Made by a program: the position numbers and the translations under genes. 64,000 nt of DNA, taken from NCBI RefSeq assembly GCF_000003815.2, contig NC_049979.1:3063353-3127352 (forward strand), written 5' to 3'. The notes below the pieces were generated by a model that was not told the DNA's origin, ran no database searches, and worked only from the letters and a program-made list of their open reading frames with translations. Shown piece after piece: positions 359 through 63,533 of this stretch. The DNA comes from Branchiostoma floridae. Its lineage: Eukaryota > Chordata > Leptocardii > Amphioxiformes > Branchiostomatidae. Numbering within the stretch: the stretch's first letter is position 1; every line of letters starts with the position of its first letter.

Positions 359-3300
359 GATTTGGCGGCAAACTTGAGCCTGCGCAAGTCCTCCACCACA
401 ACTGTGACCATCATTGTGACAGATGGAGACGACCAGGCAGTCCAGTTTCTCCCGTGCATTCAGCAGGGAGACATCTGTGGCAGTCCGCTGTACGTCTCGT
501 CTGTCATGGAGAATACAGAACCGGTAAAGATTCTTTATACGCTAGTCATATACTGGATAACTACAGAGTAAGGTTAGGGTTAAGGTACAGATTTTCCATC
601 ATGGAGAACAAAGAACAAATAAGGAGTCTTAACTTACCGGCAAACTGGTAAGAAATTGAATATTATAACAATTACAAAAGAGCAAGAGTCTGGGACAAAA
701 TGATGAGCTGCTGAATATGTTTCCGTGCCATGTTGTAAACTTTCCATCACAAGAACTCAAGTCAGACACAAAATGCCAGTGAATGTTTAAAAAAAGAAGT
801 CTTTTTCATAATTTTATAATTGTTCAAATCGAAAGAAACTGATGAAACTGCTGCTGCTGGTGTTCATTCTAGGACATGCTGGGCTTTGACAATAACAATA
901 CATGTATGTGTTTGTTGCAGCTAAACCAGCCCCTGACCTTTGACCCTGCACCTGTATTTGCCATAGACCTTGACACAGGTGTCCAGGGACCTCCTGGCAT
1001 AGTCTACAGTTTCTTAGCAGGTAGGTGTCTTTCTTCAAGATTTTTCAAAGTCAAAATGGGTGCTATGTGCTTTATGTGGGTTTTCATCTCATATATTGTC
1101 ATACTGCAATCAGTTTAGGCATTCTTGGTTAGCTTCATGAAGGTCTTGAATGCTGACATTTGGACCCACTTCCCTGAGGTTCCTGACATGCTCCCTGTAA
1201 GGTCAGAGTTCAAGGTTACTCCAAGGTAAACAAGAAAAGAAATTTAGCTTAATATGACACTTGCCTGATACATTGTGTTTTAGTCTGAAAAAAAAAATGG
1301 TGTAGTTTAGGCATTCTTAATACATGGCAGTAGCAGTTAAATACTTGATTATATGTCATCTTACTAAAGCTCAACTTAAGACAGACCTTTTCACTTTGTC
1401 AGGCTCCCCAAGTGATTTCCGGGACTACTTTGACATAGACGGGCCAACAGGGAACATCTCACTGAAACGACCCGTGGAGAGGACACAAGTAGAGGAGTTC
1501 ATCATCACCATCAAGGTCATTCATCGTTTGCATTTTTCAATACCAAGATAAACTAGAGATGAGATATTGAGCATCTATTTGCAAAATTTTGAATGACTAA
1601 TAAGATTTCATTTTTACTCATTCATTTTCAATACACTTAACCAGAATGATAAATTTTCAAATTTATCAGAAGTTTCAGACAGGCTGTCTTTCATAAGTTT
1701 TGCATCAAGACTTGTCAGTCTTTCATCAGGGACTTTTATCGGTCCAGTAACTATTGAAGGGCTGCATATATATGCTTTCTGAAACATCTGACCATGTACC
1801 TTTTGTATTGGGAATGAATGAATGTCTAACCTTTGCCTACATTCCTTGCTACATCCATCCATCCATCCATCCATCCATCCAGGCAGAGCAGGATGACAAC
1901 CCCTTACGGTACGCCACAGCAGACGTGAAGATTGGTGTAGAGGACGACGACGTCAACAAGCCTTACTTCTTCATCTCCACTGGGGAGTCGCAGTTCAAAG
2001 GTTATGTGCGAGAGTTCACAGGTCAAGCCGTCATCGTCTTCAAATATGACGAGTCACCTCTGCTGCTAGAGGTCAGGGATGACGACTTCACTGACGTAAG
2101 TGGCAGTACTTTTGATTGGATCATGGCCATGTGCTCACAATGAAGCATGGAGTTGATATAAGCAAGCTTGTCATATTGAAACTACTGGAAAATAAATAAT
2201 CATCCTGTAAAAGCACTATTTTTAAAACAACATTTTACATTAAAATTTTGGATATAGGCCACTTTGTATGTTAACTGATTCATGCTATGTAAAGATACAT
2301 GTATCATCACCAAAAGTTAGGCATTAACTTCTTTGACCTTATCCTTGTTAGTGTGGGGTTGTGTGGTGTAACTGCAGGGCATTTGGCTGAGGACCCAGAG
2401 CTCTGAATCCTGTAATGATCTAGTGCCCTTGGGAAAGGCACTTTACATGACTTTCCTCACCCCACCCAGGTGTAAAAATGGGTACCTGACTCCATTTGGA
2501 AAGGTTAAAAGGCGGTGGGAGGACAGAGTTGGGCTCCGCCTCCCAATATGTGCCCTGCATGGACACAGTGGATAACGACCCTCGGGCTTTAGAAAGGTTA
2601 ATAATAGTGTATCTTTACTTCCTTGATGAGTATCTCCATGTATTCTACCATTTACAGAAGGTAGTTCCTAAGGGAGCCATTCGCTACGAGCTGACAGACA
2701 CTAGCGGCAGATTCGAAATTACACATACGGGCTATCTCCTCGTGGACGCCAACCAGTTGGACATAGACATTCAGAGGGAGTACCGGATGACAGTGAGCAA
2801 CTTAAAATCAATGTGCTTTGATTTACATACATCATGATGATGCACATCATAGACTTTATTCAAATGTTTTATCACAGTTTTGTATTCTATACATTGTAAT
2901 GTAAGAATATGCAGGCCATGGCTATAACACACAATGCACTGTCATTCTCATAGTTACATAAACTCACCCTCACACTCAGGGTGACAATCACGGCAAAGCC
3001 TATGATATCACCCCTGACAACTCAGCCACAGTATTCGGTTATTAGGGGTGCCTTGCTTATGAATATTAGTGAGCTTGCCTGATTTGTCGCAGGCCAATCA
3101 GCGACCGGATTGCAAGTTTCGAACAAACAGCGTACGCATGTTACGGCGCGGCGTGCATAAAGATCTGTTTATCTTTGCGTGACGGTAATTTTTTTTTTTC
3201 ATATGCTANNNNNNNNNNNNNNNNNNNNNNNNNNNNNNNNNNNNNNNNNNNNNNNNNNNNNNNNNNNNNNNNNNNNNNNNNNNNNNNNNNNNNNNNNNNN

Positions 3301-41295: not shown

Positions 41296-44200
41296 TCAAA
41301 GTTCAGTTGTCATCATTTGGTCTTTTTGCTCTTCCTCTTCGTGGTACTGTGCCAGAGCAGTGCTGTCGAATGTTCTCATGGCTTCCGCTACGCTCTGGCT
41401 GTAGGATCTGTTCTTGCTGTCATCAGAAACGTCAGACTCACTCATGTAAACACCTCTTTTCCTCCCCTGCGATCTCTTTGGTACAGTCTGTTCTGCAGCC
41501 AGCTGATATGGAAGGGAAGAGACGAAAAGAGGTTAATCATAAAAAAAATTAAGTATTATTCATTGTGGCTATAGTGCTACTCTCACTTGATTTGTTTGCA
41601 TCTCTTGCTTTGATTTCTTGTATTTCCTTTTGTATTTGCTAACAGATAATTCTATAACTTCGACTTATTTCTTTATGATTCTGTAGATTATGTTTAGTTT
41701 TTCATGACTTGCAGTGTTATGATTTTCTTTGTGTAGTTTCAATTAATTTCGTTTTGTTGTTATTATTTAGCTTTGACTATGTATATTATGTTTCATTGTT
41801 ATTTAGAGGGGAACCATGAAAAGTGCATAGGCTTCTGTCCCCTCCTTGCACATTTTCTTTCATTCTATTTATCATTTGGCTTTAATTTTTGTATATGTGC
41901 CAAACGAATTAAAAAAATCATGTGAAGAAGAAAGGTCTCAGATGCTGATGTCGTTTTAATGTTGAAGAAAATTTGTACATGTATAGAGGAGATTTTTGCA
42001 TTTATATTAAATCCGTTTCAACTTGGAGTCACTCAAATCCAGATTCATAAAGAGACCATCGATTTATTAATATCCAAGCAGATATTCGGGTAGAAAATCA
42101 TATGCTTTATCAAGGAGGTTAAATGGTTTTATTATCATATTCTGTTTCATTTCTCTGACAGTGACCATGACAGTTAAGAAAACGCCATGACTTTCTCTGC
42201 TTGGAGATAATCTCAGTATGGAAAATAATACAGATTCATTTTCTAGTCCAATGAGAGGATAACAAAAGGGCCAAGGGGCAGTATTGATATATCAGAGCTG
42301 AAACATTTAGTGTAAGCCAAAACAGAAGCTGGGTAAGACCATCTAGAAAAGGACAGACAACCTTAAACCGACTGAAGGCAAGGTTACATATAAGTGACCA
42401 TCGGGACCAGACCTAAGCTAACAAGGCTGGGCTTAGGCTACTGAAGTCTGTGCCTTTGGAACATTGGTTATGCTATCAATGCTAGTTCACCTTCATGCAT
42501 GGGCCACAGGGAATCATATATCTGTTGTTTTAAATATCAGGTGTTCAGGGATATAGGTTCATAGAAGGAGATGGAAAACCTACGTTGATGGCATTGCTGC
42601 CCCTACGGCCGATGAGGCTATGGGACCGGTGAGGTGAGGTGAGGTGAGGTTCAGGGATATGAAGTCAAGGGACAGCGGTTTCAAATTGCATTATATTTTC
42701 AAAATATTAGATATTGCAGACTGTCTGTTGATCTTAGATCAAACATAGGTTATCTGGTGGATAAAGGTGAACTAGCATTATGTCCTTACCAAACTAGCGT
42801 TATGTCCTTACCAAACTAGTGTTATGTCCTTACAAAACTAGCGTTATGTCCTTACCAAACTAGCGTTATGTCCTTACCAAACTAGCGTTATGTCCTTACC
42901 TCCTGCTGCCCCCCTCCCGCAGCCTGGTCGCTGTTGCTTGACCTCTGCGATGACCTTTCGTTGTGCTCGTGAGTGTGGATGGACACCTCGGTCACCATGG
43001 TGTGGTTACTCGTTTCGCTGACCTCATCTCCCGTCGGACTGTCGCGTCCTGCAAGGCGGAGGGCACCGTTACTAAACACCAGGGCTGTCGCTAGCTTGAT
43101 TTAATCTCGCGTATAGCAGCCCGCCCAACTTCTGCCGGCCCCCGCGGGGAGGGGCCAGTTACAACACCGGACAGCAGAGTTTGTGTTACACAGACCAAGC
43201 TGTCTCCTGGCCGCGCGCGCATGCAGTTTTAATTTTTTTTCCTGTCCCACTCATTTGTTGGGAGCCAATGTTGTTAGTTTTTCTTACAAATCTGTCGTTT
43301 GAAAGCTTGGAAAAAATACATTTTCATCAATTTCTTGTCACAAAGTCCGGATTTTTGGACAGAAGGAGTGAAATGTTTTCCCATCCCAACAAGAAAGTCT
43401 CCATTCCAGGATGGGGGGATAGGACCTGTAGACAACCCTGAGCTTATTAAGATGAGACCAAGGATGTCTTCAGGACAACAATGCATAAATATAAAGAAGA
43501 CAGCAGAACATCACAAGCAGTCTAAGCACCTAATGTCGGACAGCTTCAAACAGTAGCTGGAGAAAACGTCAGTCAAAAGCAAGAGGATTCTGATGCACTA
43601 CGTCACCTACAAGAGAGAATGGAATGACTAGATTAATACAGTCAGGAAGGTGGTGACCAGATGAGCTGGCTAGCTTAGTGTGCCTGTATAGAAGACAGAA
43701 ACTGTGCTGCATTTCCAGTGACAGACGGTGGCCGTTATGCCTCAATGTTCTGATACCTCCTAACCCTAAAGCTAAGGGCACAACCCGCTTTGTGCAATTA
43801 TACGTGTTGTCTACGTGCCAAAACGTGGGCAATCTTTTGGGATCCGTAAGTTGTACGTACCGCCTTTGTACGAATTCATAGGGAATCCGACAGATTTTGG
43901 ACCACGCAGACATGCCGTAGTACCCCCCATATGCGCCAAACATTTTCAGAAATACTTGGCAGACGCGGCCTTCCAAAAAACGTATGGACAAATTGCATGC
44001 ACGGCGGGTTGTGCCCTTAGCTTTACATAGGGGTGTCAGAACAGAGGAGCATTGTCGGGGAGAAATAACATTGTCAGAGCTAAGCAATGGTGTTGGTTGG
44101 CTTCAGCATTGCTTGCATGTTGGTTGAGGACCAGTCTACTGTAGATACACTTTGTATTAGCGGTGGATAAAAACGACAGAAAGTGGAAGCAGTGGCAGCC

Positions 44201-59520: not shown

Positions 59521-59814
59521 TCACCCCTCGTTGGTGGGAGGTGGTGTGTGGACCACCTGCGCATCCCCGTGGGAGTTCCAGATCTTGTACTCAGAAGACG
59601 TGAACTCCTTTGCTGCAGGGCAAAAAATTTTCTTACAATGATATCTCAGTTCTGAGGAAGTCTCAACTACTAGTTACTGTTCACATATAGAGGAATACAA
59701 AGCTGCAATATACAGTTAGTGCTAGTGTTAGTTAACTAATCCCTGTTGAAGTTATCATAACATTTATCTATCTATCTATCTATATCTATATAAAAAAAAT
59801 TATGTACAGATAGA

Positions 59815-59850
<36 letters not shown>

Positions 59851-62800
59851 TAGAGAGAGAGATAGATAGATATATATATTGTATTGTACTCAATGGTGGT
59901 GCATCAACCATACAGTATCTGATCATCATTCACATTCTGATCATCATTCACATTCAGTTCCTCAAATCAGTGACATAACCATAGTCATAAAGACTGCAAC
60001 AGAATAACGTTGACAAAGGTATAACATCAACAAACATAAAACAAGAATACTCTCCGAGTCAGTTATTCAATCAAGCAACTGGATAATATATGATAATTTT
60101 GGAAATGGTCAGACATTTCAGATAGCATCCAATACCTTCCGTGACACTGAAGAGATCTGGCAGAAACCGGTTTTTATGTGCTAACTGTAAATATATCCAA
60201 TTCTGAAGACAATTGTTGGATTGTCCAATAGGAAAAAAAGGTAAGACAAAGTCAAGATGAAGTTGATGCAAATCGGAGCCCATTAACTCCTGTAGTTTTA
60301 GTTACAGGAGGTAACGTTTTGTTGTGGGGGTGGGGGCACTATGTCCCAAGAGCTGAAAAGTCCACCTACCCCATTGAGGGTGGGATTGCGCATTCTCTCA
60401 TCATACATAACCTCTCTGACTTCCTGTTTGAAACAATCCAGTTTCTATTTTGTATTGTGCGATATCATAGAATAAGATGGTGTTTGAAATGTCTGTATAT
60501 TTGTCTGTATCAACGCATCCACTTCCGATTCATTCTGCTAGAAATGTGTACGTCTGCCTTACTGATGATAGCCTTGTAGTTAGTTAGAAATGTGTGCCTT
60601 ACTGCCTTGTGGTTAGTTAGAAATGTGTGCGTCTGCCTTACTGATGATAGCCTTGTAGTTAGTTAGAAATGTGTGCGTCTGCCTTACTGATGATAGCCTT
60701 GTAGTTAGTTAGAAATGTGTGCCTTACTGATGATAGCCTTGTAGTTAGTTAGAAATGTGTGCCTTACTGATGATAGCCTTGTAGTTAGTTAGAAATGTGT
60801 GCCTTACTGATGATAGCCTTGTAGTTAGTTAGAAATGTGTGCCTTACTGATGATAGCCTTGTAGTTAGTTAGAAATGTGTGCCTTACTGATGATAGCCTT
60901 GTAGTTAGTTAGAAATGTGTGCCTTACTGATGATAGCCTTGTAGTTAGTTAGAAATGTGTGCCTTACTGATGATAGCCTTGTAGTTAGTTAGAAATGTGT
61001 GCCTTACTGATGATAGCCAGTAGTTAGTTAGAAATGTGTGCCTTACTGATGATAGCCTTGTAGTTAGTTAGAAATGTGTGCCTTACTGATGATAGCCTTG
61101 TAGTTAGTTAGAAATGTGTGCCTTACTGATGATAGCCTTGTAGTTAGTTAGAAATGTGTGCCTTACTGATGATAGCCTTGTAGTTAGTTAGAAATGTGTG
61201 CCTTACTGATGATAGCCTTGAAGTTAGTTAGAAATGTGTGCCTTACTGATGATAGCCTTGTGGTTAGTTAGAAATGTGTGCGTCTGCCTTACTGATGATA
61301 GCCTTGAAGTTAGTTAGAAATGTGTGCCTTACTGATGATAGCCTTGTAGTTAGTTAGAAATGTGTGCCTTACTGATGATAGCCTTGTGCTTGGTTAGAAA
61401 TGTGTGCCTTACTGATGATGGACTTGTGCTTGGTTAGAAATGTCTGTCTTACTGATGATGGACTTGTGCTTGGTGCTGGGGTGGACCTGGATGGAGCGCT
61501 GGTCGATGTAACAGCCGCTCTGCGTGTAGTCGCTCACTCGGAAGTACAGCTGCAACATCGGGGCGAGAAGTCGCATTGTAAGGTTACCATGGAAACCACA
61601 TGTGCAAGGTTACCACAGAAACAACAAAAATAGTGACTGTGCAGAATTGCTTATAGGGGTGGCACCCATCTCCATTTTGAGTAGCCCTTGGGCCACACTT
61701 TTGTGCAAGCCACTACAGCAGAGGGCTGCTTTGCTGGTAGTTTATGTGTGTTTAACTCCCATACTCTTCCTTATTTAGTGCTGAGTGCTAAGCAGAGAAA
61801 GCAGCATGTACTATTTTTAAAGTCTTTGGTATGACTCGGCCTGGGATCGAACTCACAACCTACCTACCGAATGCAAGGCGAACACTCTACCCACTCGGCC
61901 ATTGCACCGGTCGTTAGAATAGAATGCTTAAGCTAACTATAAACCAGAACATGCCTGGTACCTAGGTTATGGTTCTAAACATTTTAGTTTGACCTCTGAT
62001 CTCCCACCTCCACTCTAAGTTACTTCAGTTGATTTTGTTACTTTTCTGTTTACTTATTGTACATGTCAAGATTTGTTGCTTATGTTTTGTATTTATTGTT
62101 TTATGAATTGTAGGACTCCAGGAAGAATAGTGATACTACATTTAGTATCACTAATGGAGATCCAAATAAAACAAACAAACAAACAAACAAACATTTTGCC
62201 TAACGGTTGTATATTTTGCAAATGTATATTGTTACTATTGTATATATCATTGTATTGTATATTGTGTTGCGCTATAAATGTTTTGTACGGGAGGGCAGCC
62301 TACAAAGGTGAATTTTTGCACCTGTTTTGTCCTCCCTTTCACTATGTGTAAAACCCAAACAAACAAACAAACAAACAAACAAACAAACAAACCTGAGCGT
62401 AGGAGTTGAGGCCGGTACAGAAGGGGTCCTCCTGCAGCAGGCTGTGCGGAGGCGTGGCCATGTTGTCTGCAAACGTCACCGTCGCGTTCATCTGGACCTC
62501 CAGCGACTTGGTGGGGAACTTCTGACCTGCAGGTCACGTGGGAGGGGAGAGAAGATTATCGTTCCTCACATTTTCTTTGCAAGTTTCCACAAGTTTCAAA
62601 TTCAATAAGTGTAGCAATAAAAACTATTGCCATGGCGATGGTTTTATCATTTATAAGTTTTAATCATTGTTGTTGTAGGTGTGTTGCATGTTTGTGTTCT
62701 ATGCTTTCGCCTACTGTATGTACGAAGATTGTTTTACACGATGGATGTTTGTAGGGCATTGCTGTTATATTAACAAGAAAGGCCTTCTCTTGTGACGAGT

Positions 62801-63533
62801 GACCTATCATAAATGTTTCTCATTGATTATACAAACGAGGTTCTCAAAAAAGCTATAACTTGAAAAGAAGTCACTTGTAAAGGAGTGCATCTACATGTAA
62901 CCCTCTCAGCTTTCCACCCAATATATAGTAATGTTGGCATCACACAGCAGCAAAATAGCTCGCCCAATCCAACTAGTCTGTGAGCTCTGACTGGACATTT
63001 TCAGCACCAATATAGTCGGCGTATTCTTGTTCGGTGTGCAATTTTTGTCGTTGTTTGCAGGTGACTAAGATCAGTTGGAAGCGCGGTGTGAAGCCTTAAG
63101 CAGCAGCAGTATAATCAAATATGGATACTACTAGTACCTTCTTTGGTCAGTACTGACCATAGTAAAATCTTAGTTGATATCAACCGTACAGCTTCTGCTA
63201 TGTCTAAAGAGTCCTATGCCAGAACGACAGTCTCTACCACATAGGTCACATCTGTAAGCTAACTCATGAGTCTTTTGCAAAGTTCTTTTCTCTTGATCAG
63301 TCTGGCTTCTCCTAATTTTAGCTGCCTGGACAGTGCGCATGGACACTATAATATATAAGACATGTAGTTCTCTCTTTCTGTATCCATATTATATATTGAG
63401 CTTGAGAAAGCATGCAAACAAACAAACAAACAAACAAACAAACAAACCAATGTTCCATGCCAGGATCCTCCTGTCCGCTGACAGAACAGTGGAGCCCACA
63501 GAGGGAGTTGTTTTGTACGTCTGGATCGGGCCC
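59521..63533 (-). CDS. AP5M1: AP-5 complex subunit mu-1, 3' four exons
   Basis: Medium chain of the AP-5 adaptor, which acts at late endosomes/lysosomes in retrieval to the Golgi; this part is the C-terminal mu-homology domain that would contact cargo. Exons (minus): 63533-63448, 62526-62393, 61549-61453, 59612-59521 (stop TGA 59523-59521). Phases agree (2 in; 1, 0, 1), about 135 residues; the N-terminal part lies beyond the window. Key matches to my memory of vertebrate AP5M1: GPI..YKT at the start, WNIGQKFP across the first junction, DPFCTG, LYFRVSDYTQSGCYIDQRS, and SSEYKIWNS near the end. Order and spacing are those of AP5M1 rather than AP-1 to AP-4 mu chains. The donors of the first two exons lead into (TTTG)n and the third donor is part of a minisatellite. 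Confidence 0.92.
59764..59880. repeat. TATC and GA/GATA microsatellites
   Basis: ATCT repeats then GAGA and GATA repeats, in the last AP5M1 intron region downstream side. Confidence 0.9.
60070..60155 (-). ncRNA. Hammerhead-like structured repeat, copy in AP5M1 intron 3
   Basis: Minus strand AGGTATT-GGAT-GCTATCT then GAAATG-TCTGAC-CATTTC; four bases of the CTGACGA box are deleted. Confidence 0.4.
60545..61490 (-). repeat. 40-bp minisatellite made of the AP5M1 exon/intron junction
   Basis: About 23 units. Minus-strand unit carries CATCATCAGTAAGGCACAC and ATTTCTAACTAACTAC. The last unit (61441-61480) is the real junction of exon 61549-61453: CACAAGTCCATCATCA|GTAAGA. A few units have a 6-bp insertion (GTCTGC). 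Confidence 0.97.
61650..61915 (-). mobile_element. tRNA-derived SINE in AP5M1 intron
   Basis: Minus strand: box A TGGCCGAGTGGG, anticodon loop TTGCATT, box B GAGTTCGATCCC, then a non-tRNA body ending with GGAGATGGGTGCCACC. Confidence 0.75.
62343..62392 (-). repeat. (TTTG)n starting at an AP5M1 splice donor
   Basis: Exon ends CAG at 62393; the intron reads GTTTGTTTG for about ten units. Confidence 0.95.
63412..63447 (-). repeat. (TTTG)n starting at a second AP5M1 splice donor
   Basis: Exon ends ATTG at 63448; the intron opens GTTTGTTTG for about eight units. Confidence 0.95.

Follow-up and report, generated by a model that had tools for sequence, protein, structure and literature searches.

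Here, we asked how a coding exon can come to be followed by a row of near-identical 5' splice sites, and which of them would be used. The exon lies in a stretch of 64,000 nucleotides of the Branchiostoma floridae genome (the window), which is part of contig C1; the searches covered the genome of 513 Mb in 431 contigs. An initial annotation of the window had noted a tandem donor array at 60545-61490, at an exon of AP5M1, and we find the array close to that position, at 61474-60539. Judging from its predicted product, the gene carrying the array is most likely AP5M1, and its exons are named accordingly in the following list (window coordinates).

63448..63533, minus strand: AP5M1 exon 12 (GPIQTYK...WNIG), matching AP-5 mu-1
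62393..62526, minus strand: AP5M1 exon 13 (QKFPTKS...NSYAQ), matching AP-5 mu-1
61453..61549, minus strand: AP5M1 exon 14, 97 nt, ending CATCATCA/GTAAGA, with a protein match to AP-5 mu-1
60539..61474, minus strand: 40-bp minisatellite of 23 units with 23 CAGTAAG donor motifs; unit 1 overlaps exon 14, the others lie in intron 14
59521..59612, minus strand: coding part of the last AP5M1 exon, acceptor CCCTGCAG/CAAAGG, matching AP-5 mu-1

The gene spans about C1:3149850 to 3122873 on the minus strand, and 14 of its 15 presumed exons were located; exon 3 was not found, and the corresponding part of L010 holds an N gap. Joined together, the 14 exons encode 469 residues, of which residues 70-461 match the solved AP-5 mu-1 (8yab_E) with E = 7.3e-103, while the N-terminal stretch matches more weakly. 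If exon 14 is spliced from its first donor, the junction is ungapped in this alignment. The introns flanking exon 14 measure 843 and 1840 nt. In intron 13, a tRNA-derived SINE-like stretch (GGCCGAGTGGGTAGAGTG...GTTCGATCC) was seen by eye (window 61900-61835, minus strand).

The repeat begins inside exon 14 and occupies the first half of intron 14, with the donor G at window positions 61452, 61412 and so on down to 60562. As had been proposed, the unit consists of an exon end and its donor: unit 1 is made up of the last 22 nt of exon 14 and 18 nt of intron. TRF calls the array at window 60634-61467 with a period of 40, 20.6 copies and 95% matches. We count 23 units in one assembly, the exact copy number being the assembled one. 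Seventeen units have 40 bp, four (units 5, 20, 21 and 23) have 46 bp owing to 6 bp that are absent from the middle units, unit 12 has 39 bp and unit 22 has 33 bp.

All 23 units contain CAGTAAG, and ATCATCAGTAAG is found in 22 of them, the exception being the truncated unit 22. The donor region reads CATCATCAGTAAGA in unit 1 and TATCATCAGTAAGG in units 3-21 and 23; the earlier statement that every unit keeps CATCATCAGTAAGG was inexact, as this 14-mer occurs once on the minus strand of the window, in unit 2. The exon bases fade with distance. Unit 2 retains all 22 of them and unit 3 the first 12, whereas from unit 4 onward the exonic half is CTAACTACAAGGC or near it, and the units read ACTAACTACAAG or near it. 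This is the drift that the initial annotation had described, and it supports the proposed growth from the junction into the intron. Eleven middle units (8-11 and 13-19) are identical; the boundary units (1-3 and 20-23) and unit 5 differ from them, and units 6, 7 and 12 do so to a small extent. With diverged edges and an identical middle, the array has edges that escape homogenisation.

A genome search with a 120-base query (units 1-3), in which very common words were skipped, gave nine overlapping matches, all in the AP5M1 array and none elsewhere. Since this search found no second genomic place for these units, the array most likely grew in place, and since the exonic half is coding and ungapped against AP-5 mu-1, the exon is the likely source of the unit. 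One could also imagine the opposite course, in which an intronic minisatellite came first and then extended into the exon, taking the place of its end. The identity of unit 2 with the exon end over 22 nt would fit this course, which we nevertheless regard as very improbable: the exon end keeps its K-x-K and its ungapped alignment, and the drift rises with the distance from the exon, units 2 and 3 being intermediate. Slightly less credible still is an assembly artefact that multiplied or collapsed copies. The PGBD5 repeats do vary in copy number between assemblies, 2 versus 7 and 3 versus 6 (PMC3902484), but the AP5M1 units differ by ordered substitutions and indels, and similar arrays recur genome-wide.

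Repeats that span exon/intron boundaries have been reported from amphioxus, where they were named mirages in Adh3 and seen in globin genes (PMC3087553). Our preferred reading, to which we assign a probability of about 0.8, is that the AP5M1 array is such a mirage minisatellite, which arose by duplication of the junction, grew into the intron, was homogenised inside and is tolerated through exon definition. At the junction of exon 14 and intron 14, a tandem duplication would have taken in the 22 bases at the exon end and the 18 intron bases next to them. Slippage or unequal exchange may then have expanded the duplicate into the intron (the anatomy is observed, the mechanism presumed), and the inner units would have been homogenised during this expansion. 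With its 97 nt, exon 14 is probably recognised by exon definition, which would favour the 5' splice site nearest to the upstream acceptor. The array would be tolerated because exon definition removes the 22 downstream copies as intron.

Which donor would the gene use? In conceptual splicing, donor 1 restores the conserved C-terminus of AP5M1, and donor 2 or any later donor loses SSEYKIWNS. As the initial annotation had stated, the second donor adds 40 nt, shifts the frame and leads to an early stop, here after 20 foreign residues. Donors 3-23 all run into a TAA inside donor 2, and all 22 alternative donors truncate the protein. From these reading frames we infer that donor 1 is the one used in vivo. 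A stop codon more than 50-55 nt before the last junction usually leads to nonsense-mediated decay (NMD). The TAA lies 36 nt before that junction for donor 3 and at least 76 nt before it from donor 4 on, and products of the latter donors should undergo NMD. If splicing leaked to any of donors 2-23, the conserved C-terminus would be cut short.

Donor 1 has a predicted pairing energy with the U1 5' end of -4.5 kcal/mol and the other donors have one of -5.0 kcal/mol, against -11.6 kcal/mol for CAGGUAAGU; in addition, base -1 is A in all units, so that calling the motif a good donor was too strong. The copies pair slightly better with U1 than donor 1 does, and strength alone would therefore not select donor 1. 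Position may do so: under exon definition and with long introns, competition between 5' splice sites of near-equal strength is reported to favour the upstream one, which is closest to the acceptor across the exon (PMC9225289). The overall choice of the upstream site in near-equal competitions is given there as only 60%, which, with 23 donors, predicts leakage and counts against a clean use of donor 1. For mirages, the authors of PMC3087553 suggested from the Adh3 data and globin RT-PCR that regular splicing is not disturbed.

Alternatively, selection could maintain the tandem donors for a function of their own: they might serve as backups, form a ladder for recursive splicing, or act as decoys by which splicing is delayed or isoform ratios are set. 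The intact CAGTAAG in 23 of 23 units speaks for this, as does the report that AGGT can be a dual-specific splice site and that introns so spliced are enriched 8.4-fold in human tandem-repeat genes (PMC10809524). We consider selection unlikely. The AP5M1 donor is CAGT, not AGGT, every alternative donor truncates the protein, and neither the 40-bp unit nor 13 of 20 measured mirage-like periods are divisible by 3. Moreover, the donor is matched in its invariance by ATTTCTA, which lies outside it at the far end of the unit (23 of 23), so the homogeneity of the units is no evidence for selection on the donor, and copying alone accounts for it. Of the options named in the initial annotation, the use of the exon-proximal donor is thus favoured, as only donor 1 preserves the conserved C-terminus, whereas redundancy, recursive splicing and length variation are conjectural as functions, the donor being no more conserved than the far end of the unit.

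Next to the large array, do other junctions of AP5M1 carry repeats? TRF arrays touch (lie within 3 nt of) six of the 26 located junctions, and all six are donors, out of 13: those of exons 2, 5, 9, 12, 13 and 14. When the same 22 arrays are placed at random within the 27 kb of the gene, 2.4 contacts result on average (P = 0.038), and without the exon 14 array five contacts are observed against 1.5 by random placement (P = 0.020). This excess is suggestive, not strong. The donor of exon 5 carries a clear small mirage of 41 bp, with the exon end AAAAACATCACCAAG/GT present three times. The other repeats at junctions in and near the window are as follows.

Window 63415..63447, minus strand: (GTTT)8 microsatellite, starting exactly at the exon 12 donor
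Window 62356..62392, minus strand: (GTTT)9 microsatellite, starting exactly at the exon 13 donor
Window 42770..42900, minus strand: array of six 22-bp units (GTAAGGACATAACGCTAGTTTG), beginning at the donor of what is probably an exon in a different gene
L009 1885-2153 and 1604-1766 (C1:3128884-3129152 and 3128603-3128765): repeats flanking AP5M1 exon 9, acceptor copies and donor array

The probable exon at the 22-bp array (window 42900-43048, ...GGGQQE/GTAAGG) is an open frame with no Pfam match. Exon 9 has repeats on both sides: a GTCAGGGGTCATG array starts at its donor, and upstream there are two extra copies of the acceptor with the first exon bases, 110 and 119 bp apart, which lie outside the 3-nt test. 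At the exon 2 donor a TTAGGG-rich, telomere-like 6-bp array starts (L010 6053-6180), and behind it the exon end occurs in a further copy. On the plus strand, at window 1852-1881, (CATC)7 runs straight into a probable acceptor (ATCCATCCAG/GCAGAGC) ahead of an open frame, for which no Pfam match was found.

Such anatomy can be counted in the genome as a whole. Three CAGGTRAGT motifs in tandem (gaps 4-34) gave 135 + 117 = 252 matches, which are not independent arrays, against 2 + 0 for the reversed pattern. For single CAGGTRAGT sites the numbers are 7520 + 7614 = 15134 and 3540 + 3499 = 7039, so the ratio of forward to reversed is 126 in tandem and 2.15 for single sites. For triple GGTAAGT (gaps 6-36) we obtained 192 + 884 matches against 129 + 187 reversed, many of them from few long arrays. 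Of the first 100 single CAGGTRAGT matches listed, which all come from C1, 54 are grouped in 8 tandem clusters; minus-strand sites are apparently under-listed, and the figure is no estimate for the genome. CAGG-rich motifs may also be prone to repeat for other reasons.

To see what lies upstream, flanks were taken from 12 of the 13 distinct GGTAAGT arrays among the first 100 matches listed (an array on C4 was omitted) and from 20 of the 21 further CAGGTRAGT arrays among the matches listed on C1-C6. Protein support in frame into the donor was found in 5 of 12 and 5 of 20 flanks, respectively, the matches of L033, L051 and L052 being under the curated Pfam cut-offs.

GGTAAGT arrays: L032 and L033, dynein heavy chain; L036, PAM; L037, COP9 subunit 2; L041, GPCR
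CAGGTRAGT arrays: L044, dynein; L045, TALPID3; L051, BAR; L052, helicase; L053, Na/Ca exchanger

L032, L044 and L033, the three dynein loci, are found in a stretch of about 34 kb and possibly belong to a single gene. At L037, some 35 nt or more of intron precede the array. Judged by eye, 11 of these 20 CAGGTRAGT arrays are anchored at an exon and 7 lack such an anchor; the remaining 2 allowed no call. An open frame of at least 45 codons leads into the donor in 7 of 12 GGTAAGT and 12 of 18 CAGGTRAGT arrays (two omitted, lying inside the array or containing N), compared with 35% of 2510 random GGTR sites; for at least 55 codons the numbers are 6 of 12 and 8 of 18 against 26%. The excess is moderate, and the test is also passed by L035 and L049, which were judged non-exonic by eye. 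The periods measured in 20 of 21 arrays range from 20 to 71 bp, the last perhaps being two units. At L044, L051 and L055 the unit, by eye, resembles the exon end minus an internal piece. The dynein heavy-chain exon at L033 (C1:253300-254040) has a 33-bp repeat on the acceptor side (TATTTTGTTTCCATAG plus exon start, four copies) and a 33-bp repeat on the donor side.

A good part of the sampled arrays thus appear to start at coding exon ends, and the counts suggest that mirage anatomy is widespread in the B. floridae genome. On the other hand, 20 random 10-kb stretches (200 kb in total; period at least 10, at least 2.5 copies) held 23 TRF arrays, and the flanks of the ten that were read gave no clear mirage, which counts against a very high frequency. 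Matrix-based scoring of the units for donor-likeness was useless: the unit of AP5M1 itself obtained p = 0.32. The sampled arrays are crowded towards the contig ends: of 23 distinct CAGGTRAGT arrays among the matches listed on C1-C6, 12 lie at most 1.5 Mb from an end, compared with 2.1 expected (P = 1.8e-7, with gene density uncorrected and all arrays treated as independent, which those of the same gene are not). Subtelomeric minisatellites elsewhere show similar end-crowding. The crowding suggests growth linked to recombination; AP5M1 itself lies 3.1 Mb from the contig end.

A second class of donor-anchored repeat is CAG(GTTT)5 starting at the donor. In 286 kb (window plus L009-L031) there are four (GTTT) runs of at least six units, two of them exactly at AP5M1 donors, and genome-wide CAG(GTTT)5 occurs 48 + 77 = 125 times against 3 + 6 = 9 reversed. 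The matches listed up to C8:5.6 Mb represent 24 distinct places; upstream flanks were taken at 20 of these, and the four omitted include AP5M1. Open frames of at least 45 codons were found in 18 of 20, and of at least 55 codons in 16 of 20 (random GGTR sites: 35% and 26%). Peptides from 13 of the 20 flanks were compared with Pfam, and eight match in frame into the donor.

Pfam-matched CAG(GTTT)5 loci: L066 (just under the cut-off), L067, L069, L072, L074, L078, L079, L083

Two other sources of these repeats were considered and rejected. If the tail of one transposon family or an introner had supplied them, the sequences behind them should be related; when nine downstream flanks and the two of AP5M1 were compared with one another, no match was longer than 17 bp. 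The 38-75 bp matches of AP5M1 intron 12 to L027 and L033 lie farther in and belong to a dispersed repeat, which begins at a distance of about 115 nt from the donor. Nor does every GTNNGT donor seem to seed a tetranucleotide repeat, as the (GTGA)n pattern CAGGTGAGTGAGTGAGTGAG occurs 3 times against 3 reversed, unlike CAG(GTTT)5. At L086 (C1:3483213-3483413) and L088 (C1:21370008-21370208), in arrestin and myosin genes, a second, altered exon end was seen by eye after the donor-anchored (GTTT)n. Furthermore, CAG(GTTT)5 recurs 10 times at C8:5625073-5626516, 6 times at C2:33952976-33953653 and 7 times at C7:18163412-18163987, with a spacing of 76-303 bp, and exon end and microsatellite may there be duplicated together.

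It is a tentative idea, somewhat short of probable, that 5' splice sites are hot spots for the growth of tandem repeats, both minisatellites and donor-starting (GTTT)n, in many genes and preferentially near chromosome ends. If true, splicing, transcription or the donor sequence itself would be coupled to DNA duplication, and the genome would offer a large natural experiment in which one exon faces many equal donors. With near-identical 5' splice sites in a row at each exon, amphioxus RNA-seq would be a direct measurement of the proximity rule across numerous loci that differ in copy number. What was a curiosity in a handful of genes becomes, through the genome-wide excess, a phenomenon that can be counted. 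It has been suggested that mirages supply the material from which new introns arise (PMC3087553), and the mistaking of repeat units for exons by gene predictors is discussed for PGBD5 (PMC3902484). Gene predictors may likewise take mirage units for exons.

How does the AP5M1 array compare with known systems? An ordinary intronic VNTR or minisatellite also has a period, a homogenised middle and diverged edges, but here one edge is the end of a coding exon, from which the unit is apparently copied. The tandem units of polyubiquitin UBC, like those of AP5M1, each carry a splice motif (dual-specific sites, PMC10809524); however, the UBC repeats are coding and spliced between units, whereas the extra AP5M1 units are predicted to be intron. 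The AP5M1 array is not of this dual-specific type, since its units read TCAGTAAG (GCAGTAAG in unit 22), with no AGGT at the donor.

The lancelet PGBD5 gene has tandem repeats of the mirage kind that abut or overlap splice sites, as in AP5M1, although their units are longer (60 and 108 bp) and their copies few (PMC3902484). About 0.2 Mb from AP5M1, L066 (C1:3343370-3343613) carries a CAG(GTTT)n array with a spacing of 108 and 112 bp and matches DDE_Tnp_1_7 (Pfam); because of this match and spacing we take it as the published PGBD5 mirage, in which case it would be a positive control.

In the literature searched, which lacked most subscription papers, we found no genome-wide survey of mirages. 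The Adh3 mirages (Canestro et al. 2002, as cited by PMC3087553) have units of 10-72 bp. Those of Adh3 and of the globin genes BflGb6 and BflGb9 resemble the AP5M1 array in their boundary-spanning unit and in the splice signals found in many units, and regular splicing is suggested for Adh3 and the globins (PMC3087553). The BflGb6 haplotypes have 6 and 3 units, compared with 23 in AP5M1 (PMC3087553). In summary, with a unit that spans the exon/intron boundary, a splice signal (CAGTAAG) in 23 of 23 units and boundary units that escape homogenisation, the AP5M1 array is by its anatomy a mirage minisatellite, a kind already described in amphioxus. It is ordinary in kind and striking in degree; what is new here is the scale on which this anatomy recurs in the genome.
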